Shown here one piece after another: positions 3,072-27,038 of a stretch of DNA of 64,000 nt (the stretch's first letter is position 1; the number at the start of each line of letters is the position of its first letter). Origin of the DNA: Cecembia rubra. Its GTDB lineage: Bacteria > Bacteroidota > Bacteroidia > Cytophagales > Cyclobacteriaceae. The notes below the pieces were generated by a model that worked only from the letters and a program-made list of their open reading frames with translations, searched no databases and was not told the origin of the DNA. The stretch lies in contig NZ_PYGF01000002.1 of assembly GCF_003014575.1 (NCBI RefSeq), positions 1 through 64,000 on the forward strand. Reading direction: 5' to 3'. The position numbers and the translations under genes were made by a program.

Positions 3072-4052
3072 TTAGAAGTCTTCTTCGATTGAAAACTTAG
3101 GTGCATCCGAAATTTCTTTGGATTTCATGACTCCGGCTTTTTGGTAATCACCTACCCTCTTTTCGAAGAAGTTTGTTTTACCTTGTAGGGATATCATGTC
3201 CATAAAGTCAAATGGATTGGTACTGTTCCAAACTTTGTCACAACCCAGTTCGACTAAAAGTCTGTCCGCAACAAATTCAATATATTGGCACATCAGGTCA
3301 GAATTCATTCCGATTAATTTAACCGGCAATGCATCAGTAACAAATTCTTTTTCTATTGTAACCGCATCTGTAATGATTCTGGTAACCGTTTCTTTAGGAA
3401 GTTTATTAACGACGTGTTTGGTGTACAAATGACAAGCGAAATCACAATGCAATCCTTCATCTCTTGAGATCAATTCATTAGAAAAAGATAAACCAGGCAT
3501 TAGGCCTCTTTTTTTCAACCAAAAGATAGAACAGAATGAACCGGAGAAAAAGATTCCCTCTACAGCGGCAAATGCAATAAGCCTTTCCTGGAAGCTGCCA
3601 TTATCAATCCAACGTAAGGCCCATTCTGCTTTCCTTTTGACACAATCAATATGCTCAATCGCATTTAATAGACGGTCCCTTTCTACAGGATTCTTAATAT
3701 ATGTATCAATTAACAGGCTGTAAGTCTCAGAGTGAATGTTTTCCATAGCTATCTGAAAACCATAGAAAAATTTAGCTTCCGTATATTGAACCTCAGCAAC
3801 AAAATGTTCAGCTAAATTCTCGTTTACAATTCCGTCACTCGCCGCAAAAAAAGCCAGTACATGAGAAATAAAATGTCTCTCGCCATCATTCAAATCTTTC
3901 CAATCTTTAAGATCTTGACTTAGGTCAATCTCCTCGGCTGTCCAGAAACTAGCTTCTGCCTTTTTATAAAATTGCCAGATATCATCATGCTGGATGGGGA
4001 AGAGGACAAATCTGTTACTGTTTTCTTGAAGAATTGGTTCTATCTGTTGCAT
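3072..4052 (-). CDS. nrdB: Ribonucleoside-diphosphate reductase class Ia, beta subunit
   Basis: Small subunit that houses the di-iron/tyrosyl radical cofactor needed by NrdA. In the 326 residues, EIDLSQD (about 41-47) supplies the first carboxylate ligand. [11 protein letters not shown] gives Glu104, His107 and Tyr111, whose spacing (E-x2-H-x3-Y) matches Glu115, His118 and radical Tyr122 of the E. coli enzyme. The radical tyrosine is therefore present, unlike in the manganese/iron or metal-free variants. It is the first gene of the nrdB-nrdA unit. Its leader contains a terminator-like hairpin (4122-4146) and, further up, two palindromes (4209-4223, 4363-4377), either of which could carry regulation. 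Confidence 0.97.
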
Positions 4053-18883: not shown

Positions 18884-19885
18884 TTACGTTTTGTGTAATT
18901 GTAAAAAATCAACCAAACTTTCGATGTTTTGAAAGGTATTAGTTCCTTCTTTTTCTTTTAGAAAGATGGAAAAAGGTTCCCCTACAACCTCAATTTCCAT
19001 ATTCTGAAGATTCTGTGAAAATCCTTTTTTAGCCAAGGCTGCTTTTACCCATTTGACTTGTATTTGAGGGCCACTTACAGGAATATTACATTTTTTATCC
19101 TTTTGGACAATTTTTCCTGAAATTGGATCAAAAACAAGACCTTTACCCGGAATTAAAAGGTCCATTTGTTGATTGATAATTAGATCTTCGGGCATTCCTA
19201 TTACCAAAGGCATACCGCATTGCATCAGCCAAAAGATGTCTGCAGTTTCAATGGCTACTTCCAGATCATGGGTTGTGATCAGGATAGCCTTATTTTCTGA
19301 TTCAGCTAATCCCCTTAAAAGGTGCATGATTTCCAATCTATTGACCAAATCAAGATGAGCAGTGGGTTCATCCAGGATAAGAATTTCTCCATCTTGGGCC
19401 AAAGCTCTGGCAATCATTGCTTTCTGAAGCTGCCCATCGCTTAATTCATTTAACCTGATTTCGGTAAGGTATTGAATGTTTGTCGCATCAATTGCTTTAT
19501 CAATAATTTCTAAGTCATATTTGGATAGCCTTCCTAGTAATCCTGTATGTGGGATCCTTCCCAGTTCAACCAACTGCCTTACCGTAAGTATTCCTGTAAT
19601 AATCTTTTCTGTTAGTACAACAGAGGTTATTTTTGATAATTCTTGAAGATTAAAGCTAGTTAGGGGTTTTTCTTCCAACAAAATATCTCCATGTAGAGTC
19701 GGAATTTGTCCCATAATGGTTTTGATCAGGGTCGATTTTCCTACACCATTGGGACCCAAAAGACAGGTAAGTTTACCTTTGGTTAATTGAAAACTTAAGT
19801 TTTCTGCAACAACTTTTTTTTTGTTTCCTTTGCGGTAGCCAATGCTGATTTTTTCAGCTTTCAATATAGACTTTGTTTTTTCCAT
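18884..19885 (-). CDS. ABC transporter ATPase, cobalamin uptake (BtuD type), with C-terminal extension
   Basis: ATP-binding subunit of the importer. Walker A is GPNGVGKST (44-52), the signature is LSDGQ (148-152, variant of LSGGQ), and Walker B plus D-loop is LILDEPTAHLD (169-179). The ATG at 19885 overlaps the permease stop in a TAATG arrangement; an upstream ATG 13 codons earlier would run deep into the permease gene and is not needed. The ATPase core ends near residue 250, and about 80 further residues (roughly 252-333, containing VSGPQIQVKWVKAALAKKG) form an extension of unknown role. Cobalamin specificity is inferred from the divergent riboswitch locus; a siderophore or haem role is the alternative. 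Confidence 0.82.
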   Translation of the reverse strand: MEKTKSILKAEKISIGYRKGNKKKVVAENLSFQLTKGKLTCLLGPNGVGKSTLIKTIMGQIPTLHGDILLEEKPLTSFNLQELSKITSVVLTEKIITGILTVRQLVELGRIPHTGLLGRLSKYDLEIIDKAIDATNIQYLTEIRLNELSDGQLQKAMIARALAQDGEILILDEPTAHLDLVNRLEIMHLLRGLAESENKAILITTHDLEVAIETADIFWLMQCGMPLVIGMPEDLIINQQMDLLIPGKGLVFDPISGKIVQKDKKCNIPVSGPQIQVKWVKAALAKKGFSQNLQNMEIEVVGEPFSIFLKEKEGTNTFQNIESLVDFLQLHKT

Positions 19886-20916
19886 TAAAATTCCCTTGAA
19901 AAATTCCGTCTTAATATCAGCCATATGACCATTGGAGCCCCTATCAATGAAGTTACGGCATTAATGGGCAAAGTTTGGGCACTTCCAGGCAATTGACTTA
20001 CTGCATCACAGAATAGTAATACGATTGCTCCCGCGATTGCAGAACCGGGAAGCAAAATTCTGTGATCGCCTGTTTTAAATACCAATCTAGCCATATGAGG
20101 GACTGCAATTCCTATAAATGCAATCGGTCCGCAAATAGCAGTAGTGCCGCCAGCAAGGATTCCTGTACTCAGGATCATCCCCCAACGGAGTCTTTTTATA
20201 TTTATTCCCATACTTTCAGCATAAGCCTCCCCCAACAGCATGGCATTGTAAGATTTTTGCATGAGAATAACTGGGAAAATCCCCAAAATGGAAGCTGCCA
20301 AAAATCCCCATAATTGAAGATAAGAAGTGCCACCTAAGCTTCCCATTGACCAAACGGTAAAAAGTTTCAACTGTTCGGCCCCGGAAAAGTATGACAACAC
20401 AGCTATTATGGCAGATACTGCTGAGCCAAACATTAGACCTACGATCAACAAGGTCATGCTGTCACGGACTCTCCATGCAGTAAGACTAATGAGCAATAAT
20501 ACTAAAATGGCTCCTAATATTGCTGAGATAATGATGGACCAGACACCAAGTTCTCCGAAATAAATGCCCCATCCGAATGCAGAGCTTGCCATTAGCATAA
20601 TTGCCACTCCCAAACCTGCCCCTGAACTGATCCCTAGCACATAGGGTCCTGCAAGAGGATTTCGGAAAAATGTCTGCATTTGTAAGCCACTGATAGATAG
20701 GTTGATACCGGCTAAAATGGCGGTAATTGCTTTTGGTAATCGGAATTCCATTATGATGGTTTCCCAAGAAGTTTTCAAAAGTGGTTTTCCACTTAATCGT
20801 GCCAAAATATCATGGAATGGAATCTCCACTGAACCAATAGATAGATTCAAAATAAACAAGGTCAGGCAAATGATAAACCCAAGGAAAAAAGTGATATATA
20901 GGGAGTTATTTCTCAT
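19885..20916 (-). CDS. ABC transporter permease, FecCD/BtuC family
   Basis: Inner-membrane channel subunit of 343 residues, with about ten hydrophobic segments and the FecCD signatures RLPKAITAILAGINLSISGLQMQ, NPLAGPYVLGISSGAGLG and FIGIAVPHMARL. It overlaps the substrate-binding protein gene by 11 nt and abuts the ATPase gene by one base, so the three subunits are translated together. Import of vitamin B12 is inferred from the locus. The family as a whole also carries iron siderophores and haem. Confidence 0.87.
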   Translation of the reverse strand: MRNNSLYITFFLGFIICLTLFILNLSIGSVEIPFHDILARLSGKPLLKTSWETIIMEFRLPKAITAILAGINLSISGLQMQTFFRNPLAGPYVLGISSGAGLGVAIMLMASSAFGWGIYFGELGVWSIIISAILGAILVLLLISLTAWRVRDSMTLLIVGLMFGSAVSAIIAVLSYFSGAEQLKLFTVWSMGSLGGTSYLQLWGFLAASILGIFPVILMQKSYNAMLLGEAYAESMGINIKRLRWGMILSTGILAGGTTAICGPIAFIGIAVPHMARLVFKTGDHRILLPGSAIAGAIVLLFCDAVSQLPGSAQTLPINAVTSLIGAPMVIWLILRRNFSREF

Positions 20917-22060
20917 CCAATCGGCTGTAAAAATAAGGGGAATAATCCGGCAATTTTTCAGGATACATAACTTTGATCAGGTCTTGGAGTATCAGGTCAG
21001 GTCTCAAATACCCCAATTCAAAATACTCTAATCCACCGGTAGCACCTTTTTTCTTGGTGTAGGTATAAACTTGGCCTTTCTGAAAAGCATTGAAGTGGGT
21101 GTATCTTGGATCAAATTTACCCATTTCTTTCAGGTTATTGAAATCTGCTGCTCCAATCCAGTATTCAGCTTCTTGGGCATTTTCGAGTACATATTCATAA
21201 CTTAGTTGAATACTTCCTGTTCCGGAATGTTCCTTGAAAAGGTAATCCCCACCGGCAGCCAAGATGAGTTTTGCTCCCCAACTGTCTGCTCCTGGAACAT
21301 ACCAAATATCTTTATACATTACTCCGGCCATTATTTTTGGCCGACTTGATTGATCAATAGTACTTGCCAATTCTTCAGCAGATTCATAGGCCATTTTAAT
21401 GGTTTCAAATTCAGCTTCTGCTTCTTCCCATTTCCCAAGGAGTGCACCTGTGAACTTGATCCACTCTGCTCTACCTAAAGGATGCTCTTCTAAATATTCC
21501 CCGTTCAATAGGGCTGGAATACCAGATTTTTGAAAAAGGCCAAGATTTTTTAAATCTTCTCCCAAAGTAGATATCATTATCCAATCAGGTTCCAGGTCAA
21601 GCACCATTTCATAATTGGTCTGGGCACTGAGACCCAAATCTGTAACTTTTCCAAGACTTATCCTTTGCCTAACTATTTCTGAGGAAATTAGATCGAGGTT
21701 TGGAAACCCAATCAAAGTAGAAGATTCACCCAAATATTCCAAATGGGGGATTTGTGTGGTGGAAGTAAGGATCACTTTGTTCACTGGCAACCTTATTACT
21801 GCATCAAATTTACCCTCAGGAAGGATGGCCTGATTTTCATCTAGAACCAAATACCTGAAAGGTTGATGCTTACCTGGATAAGCTTTTAAGACATCAATGA
21901 TTTTGAATCCTTCACCTTGGTAAACTTTAAAGCCTTCTGCATAATCCATGGTCAAAACCTTGAGGTTGAGATCATTTTTTTCCTGAGAACTTTGACAAGA
22001 AATCAGGGCAAGGAAAAGAGGGAAAAAGAAAAATTGGATATTTAAAAAGGCTTGTCTCAT
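20906..22060 (-). CDS. ABC transporter substrate-binding lipoprotein, BtuF type
   Basis: Periplasmic binding component, read from the ATG at 22060. This gives a proper lipoprotein signal peptide (MRQAFLNIQ...LFLALISC) with Cys22 as the lipidated residue. A longer frame begins 29 codons earlier but would bury the signal peptide. The mature part has the two-lobed type III binding-protein pattern (ALLNGEYLEEHPLGRAEWIKF, GVMYKDIWYVPGADSWGAK, YWIGAADFNNLKE). The likely promoter is a TATATTTG box at 22090-22083 on the minus strand. The gene heads btuF-btuC-btuD, and its leader lacks a riboswitch. Confidence 0.83.
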   Translation of the reverse strand: MRQAFLNIQFFFFPLFLALISCQSSQEKNDLNLKVLTMDYAEGFKVYQGEGFKIIDVLKAYPGKHQPFRYLVLDENQAILPEGKFDAVIRLPVNKVILTSTTQIPHLEYLGESSTLIGFPNLDLISSEIVRQRISLGKVTDLGLSAQTNYEMVLDLEPDWIMISTLGEDLKNLGLFQKSGIPALLNGEYLEEHPLGRAEWIKFTGALLGKWEEAEAEFETIKMAYESAEELASTIDQSSRPKIMAGVMYKDIWYVPGADSWGAKLILAAGGDYLFKEHSGTGSIQLSYEYVLENAQEAEYWIGAADFNNLKEMGKFDPRYTHFNAFQKGQVYTYTKKKGATGGLEYFELGYLRPDLILQDLIKVMYPEKLPDYSPYFYSRLDEK

Positions 22061-22082
22061 CCGAAATGAATTGATTATAGCC

Positions 22083-22090
22083 CAAATATA
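22083..22090 (-). promoter_or_regulatory. -7 element of the btuF operon
   Basis: On the minus strand this reads TATATTTG, a full match to TAnnTTTG, 23 nt before the btuF start at 22060. It implies a leader of about 15-20 nt, far too short to hold a riboswitch. Confidence 0.5.
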
Positions 22091-22157
22091 AGGTAGTCTT
22101 ATTGAAAAGCGAGGATGGGAAAAATGAATCATGGAATGCCTATTCAAAAAAAATTAA

Positions 22158-22165
22158 TATGTTTG
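22158..22165 (+). promoter_or_regulatory. -7 element of the btuB operon
   Basis: TATGTTTG matches TAnnTTTG and lies directly before the cobalamin aptamer, so transcription would start at about 22172 and the aptamer would open the transcript. A -33 TTTG is not evident. Confidence 0.5.
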
Positions 22166-22171
22166 CAATAG

Positions 22172-22362
22172 GAAAACGGTTCCCAGACCTATCATTGATC
22201 TCGGGATTAAAAGGGAATCCGGTGTGAAACCGGAGCTGTCCCCGCAACTGTAACCCCATCTCGGTCCAATCCGGGATAGAGATTTGCCTCTACAGGGCCA
22301 TTGTTCGCGGAAGCGAATGAGAAGGCGTGCAAATCCAGGGAAGCCAGGAGACCTGCCATTTT
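22172..22362 (+). ncRNA. Cobalamin (adenosylcobalamin-type) riboswitch
   Basis: The conserved core is unmistakable: AAAGGGAATCCGGTG, then a paired CCGGAGCTG, then CCCCGCAACTGTAA, then a variable stem region, and finally the B12 box AAGCCAGGAGACCTGCC at 22341-22357. Such riboswitches repress B12 uptake or synthesis genes when cobalamin is plentiful. It is on the + strand and precedes the TonB-dependent receptor gene by about 175 nt, leaving space for an expression platform; a hairpin around AGCTTTCGGGTGAAAGGCT (22376-22394) follows the box. It does not lie in the leader of the divergent btuF operon. Confidence 0.95.
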
Positions 22363-22538
22363 TCTTTATATTCAAAGCTTTCGGGTGAAAGGCTGAGGTA
22401 AAATCTTTTGATATGTCATCCTACTTTGAATTATCTTAAGTACAATAAGGATACATATTCACTTCATTCTATCTCAATTATTTACACGGTTTGGCTTTGG
22501 ATTAAATAGGTGTTTCACTTCATTTAATTCTAAAGGCA

Positions 22539-24467
22539 TTGGTTGTTTGGTTGTTTATTCTTGTTCATGGATTCCTTCCTGATGTTGCTTTGGCAGGAAG
22601 AGTTGGCTTAAAGTCCCAAAGTCTTTATCCTTCATTATATATTGAGTTAGAAGGAGATACCCTAAAACTTGAACAAGTAGAGGTTTTTTCCAATCCTCTG
22701 AATAAATATACCTTTGGGCAACAGGTAAAAAACATCAATAGGGAACATTTAAGTTTTTTCCAAGGCTTAGGTCTCTCTGAGTTATTGCAGCAACGCACAG
22801 GTCTTTTTCTTAGACAATATGGTCCAGGCATGTTGGCATCCTTGACCATGCGTGGTACTTCTGCTGGCCATAATGCAGTTTTTTGGAACGGACTTCCCAT
22901 CAATAGCCCTTCATTAGGGCAAACTGATTTTTCCATTCTTCCTGTTGGAGCTTTCGATGATGTTCAATTGCATTTTGGAAGTGGAGGTGCGCTTTTTGGG
23001 ACGGATGCAATTGGTGGTGCTGTTCATTTGAATACCAAACTTAAATTTGGGCAGGGCCACGCTTTCCAATCAGATAGCAATTTGGGAAGTTTTGGGCGGT
23101 GGAATCAACAGCTGCAATATGGTTATTCGGACAAATTTGTTTCGGTAAGGACAAGAGTTTACAGAAATATAGCAGAAAATGACTTTCCTTTCCGAAACCT
23201 GGCTAAACCTGGCACTCCAATAGAAAGGCAGGAGCATGCAGCCTTCCTACAGGAGGGATTTACCCAAGACTTTGCTTTTCAGATCAAATCAAAACAGCTG
23301 ATAAGTAGTTCACTTTGGTACAATCAAACAGTAAGAGAAATCCAACCTGTGATTGGTTCCAATACACGGGATTTGCAGCAGGACAGAAATGTACGCTGGG
23401 TGCTGGATTATTTCAATTTTGCAGGCAAGAGGATATGGAACATTAAAACCGGTATGGTCAAGGACCAATTGGTATTTAATGCCAGCGAAAACAATACAAG
23501 TCAGTTTTTTCTTATTGGCGACTTAGACTGGGATATTAATCCAATCATTTCAAGTAAATCCGGGATACGATATGCACATGTCCAAGGCAAGCTTAGCACC
23601 TATTTCGCACAAGAAAATAGAATTGAGCTTTACCAAAGTGCCAACTTTAAATTAAAAGAGGAGGAACTCAATTTTTCATTAAACCTCCGTCAATTTATTT
23701 ACGATGGGGTCATGGCGCCATTCACACCAAGTGTTGGTGCAGATTGGAGGATTTTTCCTCAAATGAAAAAAGAGATCAAAGTTCATGCAAATGGAGCAAG
23801 AAGCTTCAAAGTCCCTACTTTAAATGATAGGTTCTGGGAGCCTGGAGGAAATAGGGAACTATTGCCTGAGTCTTCATGGAGCGGAGAATTGGGGATTTCT
23901 TATGAGTACAAATTGGGGGATTTTCTATTAAACCAACAGCTTACCCATTACCGTATGTGGGTGGACGATTGGATCATTTGGTTACCCAAAGGGAACCTTT
24001 GGTCCCCAGAAAATATAAGGGAAGTTATGAATAAGGGACTGGAATATTCGTTAGATGCCCATTATCAGAAGGGAAGTTGGGACTTCAAATTTCAAAGCAA
24101 CTACAATTGGGTGAGAGCAACCAATCTGACCAATATTTCTGAAAATGATAAGAGTTCCGGTATGCAATTACCTTATACACCCATGCATAAATTTCAATCA
24201 TTTTTTAGTGTAGGACACGGTCAGTTTGAAAGCTATGTCAATTATCATCTCATTGGTTCTAGGTTTGAGACAATAGACAATATTGCTCAACTACCTCCTT
24301 ATGGGCTTTGGGATTTAGGACTTAAGATAAAAAGATTTAAAGTAGGTGTAGTTAATGCAAGATTGGGATTTCAGGTAAACAATGTCCTGAATACATCCTA
24401 TCAGGTGCTGCGCCTCAGACCAATGCCAGGAAGAAATTATCAATTAAATATTCAGTTTTCACTATGA
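22539..24467 (+). CDS. btuB: TonB-dependent outer-membrane receptor, BtuB type
   Basis: Outer-membrane barrel that would bring cobalamin across with TonB energy. A TonB-box-like DTLKLEQVEV follows the signal peptide. The plug domain includes LSELLQQRTGLFLRQYGPGM and SLTMRGTSAGHNAVFWNGLPIN, and the barrel ends in aromatic QLNIQFSL. The start is problematic: the frame is closed by a stop at 22503 and has no ATG before the plug. TTG at 22539 gives MVVWLFILVHGF without the usual positive charge. ATT at 22527 would give MLKALVVWLFILV, a better signal peptide. The gene overlaps the next by 4 nt (ATGA). Cobalamin specificity follows from the riboswitch. Confidence 0.88.
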   Translation: MVVWLFILVHGFLPDVALAGRVGLKSQSLYPSLYIELEGDTLKLEQVEVFSNPLNKYTFGQQVKNINREHLSFFQGLGLSELLQQRTGLFLRQYGPGMLASLTMRGTSAGHNAVFWNGLPINSPSLGQTDFSILPVGAFDDVQLHFGSGGALFGTDAIGGAVHLNTKLKFGQGHAFQSDSNLGSFGRWNQQLQYGYSDKFVSVRTRVYRNIAENDFPFRNLAKPGTPIERQEHAAFLQEGFTQDFAFQIKSKQLISSSLWYNQTVREIQPVIGSNTRDLQQDRNVRWVLDYFNFAGKRIWNIKTGMVKDQLVFNASENNTSQFFLIGDLDWDINPIISSKSGIRYAHVQGKLSTYFAQENRIELYQSANFKLKEEELNFSLNLRQFIYDGVMAPFTPSVGADWRIFPQMKKEIKVHANGARSFKVPTLNDRFWEPGGNRELLPESSWSGELGISYEYKLGDFLLNQQLTHYRMWVDDWIIWLPKGNLWSPENIREVMNKGLEYSLDAHYQKGSWDFKFQSNYNWVRATNLTNISENDKSSGMQLPYTPMHKFQSFFSVGHGQFESYVNYHLIGSRFETIDNIAQLPPYGLWDLGLKIKRFKVGVVNARLGFQVNNVLNTSYQVLRLRPMPGRNYQLNIQFSL

Positions 24468-25522
24468 AAAAAATTAGCAATCTAGGAACAGCAATTATTT
24501 TGTTATTGTCCCTTTTTTCTTGCATGGAAGAAGGGAGTCAGATGCCCGCAGGGGAATTTGAAAGAGGTATTTTGATTTTGAATGAAGGGGCTTTTGGAGC
24601 TAATGATGGAGAAGTTTACCATTATGACCCTAACTTGGGTACTATCAAAACCAATATTTTTGAAAGCAAAAATGGAAGGCCTTTTGCCGGATTATTACAG
24701 GATTTGGTTGCATCAGAAGGTAGGTTATATCTGATAGCCAATACTGGAAAAGTCGAAGTTGTAGACCCAAAAGATTTTGCAAATAGGGGGGCAGTTACTT
24801 CTGGATTGGATATCAGCCGATCTTTGGTAACTGCAAACCAAAAAATATATATCTCAGACTGGGGGCCTTATGATGCCAATTTCAATAGCCCGAATTCTTA
24901 CATAGCAGTTGTAAACCAATTGGATGGTGGATCCGTCAATAAAAAAATTGCTGTGTCTTCCCGTCCCGAAGGGATGTTTGTGGAAGGAAATCAGCTACTG
25001 ATAGCTTGTTCGGCCGCCAAGAAGTTGGATGTTGTTTCACTGAACACAGAACAACTGCTTAAATCTGTTGACATACTGGGGAGGCCTAGTCGGTTTTTTG
25101 AGTCAGGAGGAAGATTGTATTTATATGCAAGAGATGGGGGGAATGTTTATTTTCATGAAATCAATAGGTCCAGCGGGGATATCGCAAAAACTGTAAAGGT
25201 TAATTTACCGCTATCAACTTCAAATTTTGCTCTGACTGATAATGGTGAAGTGCTGATCATAACTTCCACAGGATGGCCTGATTATAACGATGCCGTTGCA
25301 AGGGTTGACATAAATGACGGTCAGGTTTTGAATTCCTCTGTTTATACTGGTTCTGGGCTTTATGGTATTGGATTCCATAAAGAGAGGAGTGAAATTTATT
25401 TGACGGATAATAACGGTTTTCAGGGGAATGGCACTGTGATTATCCTTGATAGGGAAGGTATTCAGAAAAAAACCTTTGTAGCGGGTAGGGGTCCTTCAGG
25501 TTTTAAATTTAATTTAAATTGA
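24464..25522 (+). CDS. Surface beta-propeller lipoprotein, BtuG type
   Basis: Lipoprotein of 352 residues with a signal peptide ending at Cys20 (LLLSLFSC). The rest is made of repeated four-strand units (LYLIANTGKVEVVDPKDF, IYISDWG, LLIACSAAKKLDVVS, EVLIITSTGWPDYNDAVARVD, IYLTDNNGFQGNGTVIILD), the pattern of a YncE/DUF5074-like seven-bladed propeller. In Bacteroides, BtuG is such a surface propeller lipoprotein that binds B12 very tightly and passes it to BtuB. The position here, overlapping the btuB stop by 4 nt behind a cobalamin riboswitch, supports the same role. The family call is by pattern and context rather than alignment. Confidence 0.8.
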   Translation: MKKISNLGTAIILLLSLFSCMEEGSQMPAGEFERGILILNEGAFGANDGEVYHYDPNLGTIKTNIFESKNGRPFAGLLQDLVASEGRLYLIANTGKVEVVDPKDFANRGAVTSGLDISRSLVTANQKIYISDWGPYDANFNSPNSYIAVVNQLDGGSVNKKIAVSSRPEGMFVEGNQLLIACSAAKKLDVVSLNTEQLLKSVDILGRPSRFFESGGRLYLYARDGGNVYFHEINRSSGDIAKTVKVNLPLSTSNFALTDNGEVLIITSTGWPDYNDAVARVDINDGQVLNSSVYTGSGLYGIGFHKERSEIYLTDNNGFQGNGTVIILDREGIQKKTFVAGRGPSGFKFNLN

Positions 25523-25535
25523 AATCATAAGAAAT

Positions 25536-26249
25536 ATGATTAAAAAAATCCCCATATCATTGGCTTGGTCAGGAGGGAAAGATTCAGCCTATTCTTTATA
25601 TGTGCTCAATAAAACATCTGAATTTCAGGTCGTCCGTTTGCATACCACACTTGTTGAAGGGACAAAAAGGGTAGGGCTTCATGGAATTCAGGAGTCGCTG
25701 ATTCATAAACAGGCAAGTTTGATCGGACTTCCATTGGATACTATATACTATCCGGAGAGCGGGGACAATCAAGCTTATGAAAAAGCCATGACAGGATATT
25801 TAAGGCAACTCAAGCAAGAAGGGATTTTTCATGTTGCATATGGAGATATATATCTAGAAGACCTCAAACAATACCGCGAAGCGCAATTGGAAAAAGCTGG
25901 AATACAACCTATTTTCCCACTTTGGGGAAGGAATACCAGACAAATAGTAAATAAAATCCTTCACTCTGGGTTTTTGACAGCCATTTGTGCAGCAGATGCT
26001 GATAAAATCGACAAATGTTGGCTAGGCAAGGTTTTAAATCAAGAGTTTTTGGATGCTTTAGCGCCTTCAGTAGATCCCTGCGGTGAAAACGGCGAGTTCC
26101 ATACTTTTTGTTTTGGTGGACCCATATTTTCCGAAAAAATATCCATTCTACTGGGCGAAACTATAGCGAGAAGTTATTCCTATGAAGATAGCCAGGGTGA
26201 AGTTCTCAAAAAACAATTTTGGTTTAAAAACATTAAGCTTATAGATTAG
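25536..26249 (+). CDS. DUF71/COG2102 PP-loop ATPase, predicted B12 salvage enzyme
   Basis: N-type ATP pyrophosphatase of 237 residues. The PP-loop is SGGKDS (12-17), and the C-terminal block DPCGENGEFHTFCFGGP (180-196) is the DUF71 signature. Eukaryotic and archaeal members are diphthine-ammonia ligases (Dph6). Bacteria lack diphthamide, and comparative genomics has predicted that the bacterial branch acts in B12 salvage, probably as an amide-forming or amide-handling enzyme. Here the gene lies 13 nt behind the propeller lipoprotein gene in a riboswitch-led operon, which agrees with that prediction. The exact reaction is not established. Confidence 0.85.
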   Translation: MIKKIPISLAWSGGKDSAYSLYVLNKTSEFQVVRLHTTLVEGTKRVGLHGIQESLIHKQASLIGLPLDTIYYPESGDNQAYEKAMTGYLRQLKQEGIFHVAYGDIYLEDLKQYREAQLEKAGIQPIFPLWGRNTRQIVNKILHSGFLTAICAADADKIDKCWLGKVLNQEFLDALAPSVDPCGENGEFHTFCFGGPIFSEKISILLGETIARSYSYEDSQGEVLKKQFWFKNIKLID

Positions 26250-26297
26250 TGCTTTATAGTTTCTCTTTCTGACTCTCAAAACCTGGTGGATAATTAT

Positions 26298-27038
26298 ATG
26301 TCATCAAAATCAGCTTTATACATTGTTACAGGCTCAAGTAAGGGAATTGGCGAGGCTTTGGTGAAGAAGCTCCTTGAAGAACCAAATAATCGGGTCATAG
26401 GAATGGCAAGGTCTCAGATGGAGTTATTTCACCCAAACTTCAAATTCATCCAAATTGACCTTTCCAATTTTCAGGAAATATTGGAACACATTGATGACAT
26501 ATTTCCTGAAGAGAGTTTTGCTAAGGTAGTACTCGTTAACAACGCAGGCTGGATTGGTGAGATTGTGCACTTAGGCAATATGACACCTGTTGGTATTTAT
26601 AAGACTTTTGTCCTGAATACCATAGCGCCCACTGTCCTGATGAATGCCTTTATTAAAAAATACGGAAACCAAATGGAGGTTGAAAGATTGATTGTCAACA
26701 TCAGTTCTGGAGCTGCCAAAAAAGCTATAGATGGTTGGGCATGTTACTCTGCCTCTAAAGCAGCCATCAATATGCTAAGTGAAGCAGTTGCTATCGAGGC
26801 TAGTTTGGATAATACTGGAATACGTGTTTTTTCGGTAGCTCCTGGAGTTGTAGATACCGATATGCAATCTGAAATACGTAAAGCTGAGGTAGAGTCTTTT
26901 TCTTCACTCTTAAAATTTGTAGGATTAAAAGAAAACCAACTTCTAAGTACTCCCGATCATGCCGCCAAAAAGCTTTTAGAATTAATCCAAAATCCTGGGA
27001 ATTTTGAGGAGGTCCTTCAAGATGTAAGGGAATTTTGA
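26298..27038 (+). CDS. Short-chain dehydrogenase/reductase
   Basis: Classical SDR of 246 residues from the ATG at 26298 (a GTG four codons earlier is less likely). The cofactor motif is VTGSSKGIGEA, followed by NNAGW, a catalytic serine in ISSGAA, and YSASKAA with the catalytic Tyr and Lys. The VAPGVVDTDMQ loop is typical of sepiapterin reductase/benzil reductase-like members. It starts 48 nt after the DUF71 gene on the same strand with no terminator between, so it may belong to the B12 riboswitch operon, although a housekeeping carbonyl reductase is equally possible. The substrate is unknown. Confidence 0.85.
   Translation: MSSKSALYIVTGSSKGIGEALVKKLLEEPNNRVIGMARSQMELFHPNFKFIQIDLSNFQEILEHIDDIFPEESFAKVVLVNNAGWIGEIVHLGNMTPVGIYKTFVLNTIAPTVLMNAFIKKYGNQMEVERLIVNISSGAAKKAIDGWACYSASKAAINMLSEAVAIEASLDNTGIRVFSVAPGVVDTDMQSEIRKAEVESFSSLLKFVGLKENQLLSTPDHAAKKLLELIQNPGNFEEVLQDVREF

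Follow-up and report, generated by a model that had tools for sequence, protein, structure and literature searches.

The locus and its genes

The stretch of DNA analysed here (the window) comprises 64,000 nucleotides of Cecembia rubra, positions 1 to 64,000 of contig NZ_PYGF01000002.1, and holds a cobalamin riboswitch that is followed on the same strand by genes for a BtuB-type TonB-dependent receptor, a BtuG-type surface lipoprotein with a β-propeller fold, a PP-loop protein of the DUF71/COG2102 family and a short-chain dehydrogenase/reductase (SDR), and a set of btuFCD-type import genes (18884-22147, minus strand) adjoins the riboswitch in divergent orientation (Table 1). The DUF71 protein is our main subject. 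Its occurrence beside B12 transport genes was already published in 2012 (PMC3541065, cited throughout from the available part of its text) and the window adds one more such case. What is new is the genetic background, namely that of an importer which has an adenosyltransferase and gives no match to CbiZ, CbiB or CobS, and this background sharpens the question that was raised about DUF71 in 2012.

The riboswitch aligns to positions 1-189 of the RF00174 model, that is to the full-length aptamer, and its match encloses position 22172, where the sequence-only reading had placed its start. A search of the whole genome (labelled G000, 4.75 Mb and 99.97% complete) found no second cobalamin riboswitch, and the DUF71 gene is likewise single. 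The two lie about 3.2 kb apart on the same strand, for which we arrive at a chance probability of about 3e-4 for one site in G000 by an arithmetic estimate. On the plus strand btuB and btuG overlap by 4 bases (a gap of -4), while 13 bases separate btuG from DUF71 and 36 bases separate DUF71 from the SDR gene, and no terminator-like sites were found in the gaps 25523-25535 and 26250-26285. Two weak plus strand sites lie inside btuB (23455-23467) and inside btuG (25075-25090), and the six terminator-like sites of the region are no more than shuffled sequences lead one to expect (mean 5.0). Judging from the sequence, transcription would run on through DUF71 and SDR as one operon, which by analogy is presumably repressed by B12. 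The string TANNTTTG at 22158-22165 was considered as a -7-like box of Bacteroidota and was rejected, the count of 74 in the window against 75.9 expected amounting to no enrichment.

The DUF71 protein carries the PP-loop motif SGGKDS and the string DPCGENGEFHT, and the latter contains ENGEFH, the signature of the DUF71-B12 subgroup, which was defined by ENGEF/YH in place of the EGGE/DxE of Dph6 (de Crecy-Lagard et al. 2012, PMC3541065). Besides this replacement in a PF01902 protein, membership is indicated by adjoining B12 transporter genes or cbiB, and the window has the former in the upstream btuB and btuG and the divergent btuFCD genes, cbiB being without a match in G000; B12 transporter genes adjoined 75 of 102 DUF71-B12 genes in 2012 (PMC3541065). 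The window protein thus shares with the subgroup SGGKDS, ENGEFH, a histidine at the site of a glutamate in Dph6 and the B12 transporter genes of the locus, but differs in lying behind a cobalamin riboswitch, the word riboswitch being absent from the available text of PMC3541065. Our literature search found no paper joining cobalamin riboswitch with COG2102, and no answer from after 2012 as to the reaction of DUF71-B12. Neither Dph6 nor CbiZ is a fitting assignment for the protein, since ENGEFH stands where Dph6 has EGGE/DxE with its catalytic glutamate, the score against TIGR03679 is 84.8 where the cut-off is 197.3, and PF01902 alone is matched and not the PF01955 of CbiZ. Furthermore, the diphthamide of elongation factor 2 does not occur in bacteria (PMC3541065).

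By sequence the only near relatives of solved structure are PF0828 (3rjz/3rk1) and PH1257 (2d13), and the predicted model (predicted local distance difference test score, pLDDT, of 96.5) matches the same two proteins, and tRNA-modifying PP-loop enzymes much more weakly. The fold (template modelling score TMq 0.67-0.72) and the ATP-site residues are common to the window protein and Dph6 (PF0828, 3rk1), whereas the catalytic Glu188 of Dph6 aligns with His189 of the window protein. This histidine is one of 14 columns that are invariant in 92 sequences (S12, G14, K15, D16, H49, Q59, G103, D104, P128, D180, G183, E184, G186 and H189; alignment A1, the window and 91 of the 113 listed DUF71 sequences), and most of the others are found at the PP-loop and the ENGEFH motif.

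The import genes are recognized by both sequence and structure. The top solved relatives of the receptor are the BtuB-type chains 8p97, 8p98, 8bmx and 8blw, and against the NCBIfam equivalog TIGR01779 it reaches 110.7 bits, below the cut-off of 599.7. The lipoprotein is a propeller homologous to BtuG and adjoins btuB: a profile of 24 sequences matches BtuG chains, 8p97 and 8bmx among them, at E values as low as 3.6e-71, and the first 16 Foldseek matches of the predicted model (pLDDT 92.3) are 15 BtuG chains and 3dsm, a Bacteroides relative of BtuG, with TMq 0.72-0.75. Its lipobox LFSC, the Cys20 of which is invariant in 24 aligned sequences (alignment A2, built from the window sequence with 23 of the 25 BtuG sequences listed), is followed by MEEG, and acidic residues after the lipobox cysteine are an export signal (PMC6143338, available part). 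Riboswitch-controlled btuB-btuG loci are known from gut Bacteroides and Bacteroidetes, as the available parts of PMC6143338 and PMC10404256 describe, and this part of the window is therefore ordinary; the riboswitch, BtuB and the adjoining BtuG-type lipoprotein with its cysteine, acidic residues and propeller fold are common to both, whereas the window differs in the identity to BtuG of 16-19% over the fold alignment, in the DUF71 gene after btuG and in the divergent btuFCD genes. The true start of btuF is, from its sequence, probably the internal methionine of MRQAFLNIQ. The btuD-type ATPase has a C-terminal part (18884-19156, minus strand) of about 90 residues past the best ATPase model match, and similar lengths are seen in most family relatives. 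Overall, the RF00174 match, the Pfam families, the structure matches and ENGEFH bear out the sequence-only reading of a B12 locus in which BtuB, a propeller of the BtuG type and a DUF71 protein follow a riboswitch, and they assign this DUF71 protein to the B12 subgroup.

Table 1. Features of the window and, in the last row, short DUF71 paralogs in loci of relatives
Feature	Coordinates	Strand	Evidence
Cobalamin riboswitch aptamer RF00174	22160-22374	+	102.4 bits against a gathering score of 31.5, E 1.7e-24
btuB-type TonB-dependent receptor	22539-24467	+	Plug PF07715 over curated cut-off; TTG start as listed
BtuG-type surface lipoprotein, β-propeller	24464-25522	+	DUF5074 PF16819 over curated cut-off
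DUF71/COG2102 PP-loop protein, B12 subgroup	25536-26249	+	Diphthami_syn_2 PF01902 117.9 bits, over curated cut-off
SDR oxidoreductase	26286-27038	+	adh_short PF00106 over curated cut-off
btuF-type periplasmic binding lipoprotein	20906-22147	-	PF01497; divergent
btuC-type permease	19885-20916	-	PF01032; best NCBIfam model PRK03784 BtuC 212.8 bits, below cut-off of 334
btuD-type ATPase with C-terminal extension	18884-19924	-	PF00005; FecE- and BtuD-type models below cut-off
Short DUF71 paralogs	L045:10115-10765, L084:10929-11588, L071:9836-10501, L097:9710-10384, L050:9127-9798, L046:9290-9931, L211:6401-7042, L212:289-930, L226:6392-7036		

Linkage and distribution of DUF71 in relatives

The comparative survey of DUF71-riboswitch linkage for which the sequence-only reading had called was run on a family sample of 118 genomes and on 60 loci of other members of the phylum, the latter taken from 57 of the 63 non-family genomes with DUF71 (three genomes gave two loci each). 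Left out of these loci were G135, G189, G196, G265, G349, G314 and the second copy in G341, as was the family genome G308. DUF71 is found in 58 of the 118 family genomes, a count from which a match in G005 (E 1.9e-4, in a 914 aa frame) was dropped (59 to 58) and in which the split copy of G007 and the remnant of G045 were kept, and a cobalamin riboswitch is found in at least 109. A riboswitch lies upstream of DUF71 on the same strand and within 7.4 kb in at least 35 of these 58 genomes, intervening genes on the opposite strand not being excluded for every pair, and B12 import or assembly genes lie within three genes of DUF71 in 8 more; near the DUF71 genes of G008 and G010 the only neighbour of this kind is the small DUF5522 protein, which is seen repeatedly at B12 loci. 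Of the 60 loci outside the family, 16 have a riboswitch no more than 6.4 kb upstream, always on the same strand. The cleanest case is that of the relative G190 (L273:1413-5392), where the riboswitch is followed by 96 bases without a gene and then by DUF71 as the first gene, with btuF, btuC and btuD closely packed behind it. In G053, which is of the same genus as the window, the riboswitch is followed by btuB, btuG and SDR, with 82 bases from btuG to SDR.

In a tree of 114 DUF71 proteins, from which open reading frames (ORFs) under 190 aa were left out, the riboswitch label takes 22 changes against a shuffled mean of 38.1 (none of 500 shuffles being as low), and well supported branches force at least six; riboswitch linkage is therefore clustered, yet has been gained or lost several times, and it thus recurs though it is often broken. 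The idea that the unlinked copies are a subfamily of their own, lacking the B12 signature, is ruled out by motif counts, as ENGE[FY]H is present in 58 of 62 family ORFs (three differ at the N, in G027, G038 and G077, and one is the N-terminal half of the split gene of G007) and in 49 of 57 ORFs from the phylum outside the family (four differ at the N and four are without such a string as read). The choice of ORFs was mechanical, and L249, L255, L257 and L260 have no labelled DUF71 though the genome search found one there. In L065:8451-10047 and in L093 DUF71 is found between genes for a methylthioadenosine/S-adenosylhomocysteine nucleosidase and a nitroreductase, the latter weakly BluB-like below the cut-off. 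Plasmid-borne DUF71 genes also occur outside Bacteroidota, those of Meiothermus and Priestia having no obvious B12 neighbour that of Allomeiothermus adjoining the gene of an ATP-binding cassette substrate-binding protein, and that of Aeromonas lying in an unannotated stretch.

Co-occurrence with cobamide enzymes was counted raw, uncorrected for kinship, in the family sample and in a phylum sample of 247 genomes. In the latter sub-cut-off matches were dropped (DUF71 68 to 66, G255 and G345; CobS 76 to 75, G360) and the 76 aa fragment of G314 was kept as DUF71. The family has CbiB in 8 genomes, CbiZ in none, CobS in 25 and a PduO-type adenosyltransferase in 115, and among its 58 DUF71 genomes 54 are without CbiB, all 58 without CbiZ and 37 without CobS; of these four enzymes G000 matches the adenosyltransferase only. 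The phylum sample has DUF71 in 66 genomes, CbiB in 49, CbiZ in 7 (all with CbiB) and CobS in 75, and not one of its genomes has DUF71 and CbiB together. DUF71 is present in all 17 family genomes that have CobS and not CbiB, which belong to 14 genera, as against 4 of the 8 that have both, and of these four G045 has a remnant broken by a TGA codon and G010 has the short paralog only. The same pattern is seen among non-family members of the window's class, where the counts are 13 of 13 against 0 of 4 and where the 12 members of genus g91 with CobS and without CbiB have DUF71, while its single CbiB-positive member, G268, is without it. The remnant of G045 (L062, C15:135534-135893), with its in-frame TGA, lies behind a riboswitch, btuB and btuG.

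Possible functions of the DUF71 protein

We tentatively propose, with a probability of roughly one third, that the window holds a B12-repressed corrinoid import operon in which the DUF71 protein uses ATP as an amidoligase for carboxylated side chains of corrinoids taken up from outside. With ample B12 the riboswitch would lower expression of the genes. Corrinoid would be captured at the cell surface by BtuG, cross the outer membrane through BtuB and be taken into the cell by the divergent BtuFCD. There DUF71 would serve as an accessory enzyme of the cytosol whose substrate is the incoming corrinoid itself and whose action does not depend on nucleotide-loop assembly, and by analogy with its relative Dph6 it may use adenylation and then ammonia to amidate or re-amidate the carboxylated side chains. 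This proposal stems from the occurrence of DUF71 in genomes with CobS and without CbiB, which together with the Dph6-like chemistry suggests an amidoligase on imported corrinoids. Since no CobS or CbiB was found in G000, the organism should use corrinoids as imported, and as CbiZ is likewise without a match, the enzymes covered by the searches should offer no way of rebuilding either cobyric acid or cobinamide to a cobamide; with this background the substrate of DUF71 is confined to the corrinoid as imported or to something further downstream. De novo corrinoid makers have amidoligases of their own, CbiA and CbiP, and we propose that DUF71 benefits importers, whereas organisms capable of de novo synthesis can mostly do without it. 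The wider claim that DUF71-B12 is the corrinoid repair or maturation amidoligase of importers without the de novo amidating enzymes, with a short sister type in Bacteroidota that has a different substrate motif, seems rather unlikely to hold in full.

A number of facts weigh against the amidoligase proposal. The substrate of amidation was guessed from the chemistry and from where the gene occurs, and the histidine in place of glutamate argues for some change in chemistry from Dph6 (PMC3541065). The genome searches that gave no match to CbiZ, CbiB or CobS in G000 did not extend to CbiA, CbiP, CobU, CobT and CbiR. DUF71 genes of relatives outside B12 loci, which the sequence-only reading had itself named as telling against its case, are found in 13 of the 58 family genomes (no B12 gene within three genes of DUF71, two of the copies being at contig ends) and in 44 of the 60 other loci (no riboswitch within 6.4 kb upstream), so that this condition holds in part, although ENGE[FY]H is present in most of the proteins concerned. 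Furthermore, 60 of the 118 family genomes are without DUF71 though at least 109 have the riboswitch, and G053, of the same genus, is without it as well, so DUF71 is not required for B12 use. CbiB occurs together with a full-length canonical DUF71 in the family genomes G002 and G048, and outside the window's class DUF71 is present in just 2 of 14 genomes with CobS and without CbiB. Finally, the exclusion of DUF71 and CbiB is confounded by kinship, in that 43 of the 49 CbiB genomes belong to one family, genera with CbiB number 7 of 122 against 38 with DUF71, and a single genus supplies 12 of the 13 genomes with CobS and without CbiB in the window's class.

The leading published suggestion is that DUF71-B12 stands in for bacterial CbiZ and converts adenosyl-pseudo-B12 to adenosylcobyric acid, which CbiB re-uses, or that it serves another route of pseudo-B12 salvage. 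It is based on the observations that CbiZ or DUF71 accompanied CbiB in almost every genome that had it and that CbiZ and DUF71 excluded each other in bacteria (PMC3541065), and the fact that the two are never found together in our family or phylum sample is in agreement with it. CbiB is however needed for such a role, and it was found neither in G000, nor in 54 of the 58 family DUF71 genomes, nor in any of the 66 in the phylum. Since both CbiZ and DUF71 are missing from 42 of the 49 phylum genomes that have CbiB (and from 4 of 8 in the family), and since CbiB and DUF71 are never together in the phylum sample, the CbiB rule of 2012 fails in these samples. Judging from its gene content, G000 cannot run the cobyric acid route on the set of enzymes tested. 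In addition a PP-loop ATPase is odd for a hydrolase, as was pointed out by a reviewer of PMC3541065. The background of G000 without CbiZ, CbiB and CobS matches thus falls outside the functional guess in the available text of PMC3541065, and an importer of this kind that has an adenosyltransferase and keeps DUF71 behind its sole riboswitch speaks against that guess in this clade, where we regard it as improbable. CbiR is a different remodelling enzyme, and DUF71 is not mentioned in the available part of the paper on it (PMC7733943).

DUF71 might instead take the place of CbiB and ligate aminopropanol (phosphate) to cobyric acid at the expense of ATP. Amide-forming chemistry would suit a PP-loop ligase, DUF71 is found in every CbiB-negative genome with CobS in the family (17/17) and in the window's class (13/13), and the short paralog lies next to CobU or two genes from it in 5 of 9 cases; the likelihood of this role is nonetheless made small by the facts that 37 of the 58 family DUF71 genomes, G000 included, give no match to CobS, so that the product could be of no use to them, and that two CbiB genomes also carry a full-length canonical DUF71. 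A weightier though still doubtful possibility is that DUF71 is only co-regulated and has no contact with corrinoids, acting on a need that arises in B12 shortage or on a B12-dependent enzyme system such as the mutases. In L209:2881-6228 DUF71 is found downstream of a fused B12-dependent acyl-CoA mutase (Pfam-tested for its B12-binding, MeaB and mutase domains), which we take to be of the IcmF type, and the same arrangement is indicated in L210 and L230 by a MeaB-profile label and length only. In other loci DUF71 lies near meaB on the opposite strand, and many DUF71 copies lie apart from B12 genes. Such a function is however in poor agreement with the surroundings of at least 43 of the 58 family copies, which lie in loci headed by a riboswitch or adjoin genes for importing or assembling corrinoids, and with the association with CobS, which points to the assembly of corrinoids and not to their use. 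A function of DUF71 as a missing adenosyltransferase was also considered and is ruled out by the PduO-type enzyme found in G000 and in 115 of the 118 family genomes.

The short paralog, the SDR and minor features

Nine DUF71 rows of 214-225 aa form one clade (Shimodaira-Hasegawa-like approximate likelihood ratio test 100, long stem of 1.67; Table 1). Eight of the nine are found in B12 loci, five being riboswitch-linked and three lying beside CobU and a divergent btuF, and the ninth, in G010, has only a DUF5522 protein beside it. Four genomes have the short and the canonical form in the same locus, and the short form is often near CobU. In seven short rows picked by motif, a choice by which the clade member L071:9836-10501 fell among the long rows, GDIFLEDLxxYR is changed to a string like GDIDLxPHxxWE with the ATP site and ENGE[FY]H kept, which suggests a different substrate or position for the short type. 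Acinetobacter DUF71 copies match one short protein better than the window DUF71 (138 against 90 bits). An Acinetobacter-related group (cluster 3) was described as not linked to B12 (PMC3541065), and judged by sequence the short type of Bacteroidota may be an exception to this. The small DUF5522 protein is found next to DUF71 or CobU in L046:9931-10296 and eight more family loci, and by profile in L211, L212 and L226; in L046, the one case tested against Pfam, a Cys-rich CWC match lies below the cut-off. A DUF6580 protein, about 200 aa long, is encoded behind btuB at riboswitch loci of relatives (L084:11585-12184, L215:926-1519), and at a guess this is possibly a part of the transport system.

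The SDR had been put forward from the sequence as a possible further step, and it was considered here as a corrinoid salvage enzyme partnering DUF71. Its gene indeed follows DUF71 by 36 bp in the window, adjoins DUF71 in six family loci including the window, and lies beside btuG in G053. This partnership is nevertheless made very improbable by the fact that among 79 SDR loci of named genomes sixA adjoins the gene in 68 and is one gene off in 3 more, that 77 have none of DUF71, btuB, btuG, btuF, cobU and cobS within three genes, B12 genes being found so close in two Cecembia loci only and DUF71 likewise in no more than 2 of the 79, that a gene for a multidrug and toxic compound extrusion transporter lies upstream of SDR in L141 (the one locus tested), and that G053 has the SDR without DUF71. 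The closest relatives of the SDR in named genomes are those of Cecembia (74 and 70% identity) and Aquiflexum. Since sixA adjoins most SDR genes and B12 genes only the two of Cecembia, the B12 genes probably came to lie beside an SDR-sixA pair in one subclade, and from its gene neighbourhood the SDR is probably a positional passenger of the operon.

Elsewhere in the window the small chain of a ribonucleotide reductase is encoded at 3072-4052 on the minus strand, and a B12-independent class I ribonucleotide reductase is therefore probably present.

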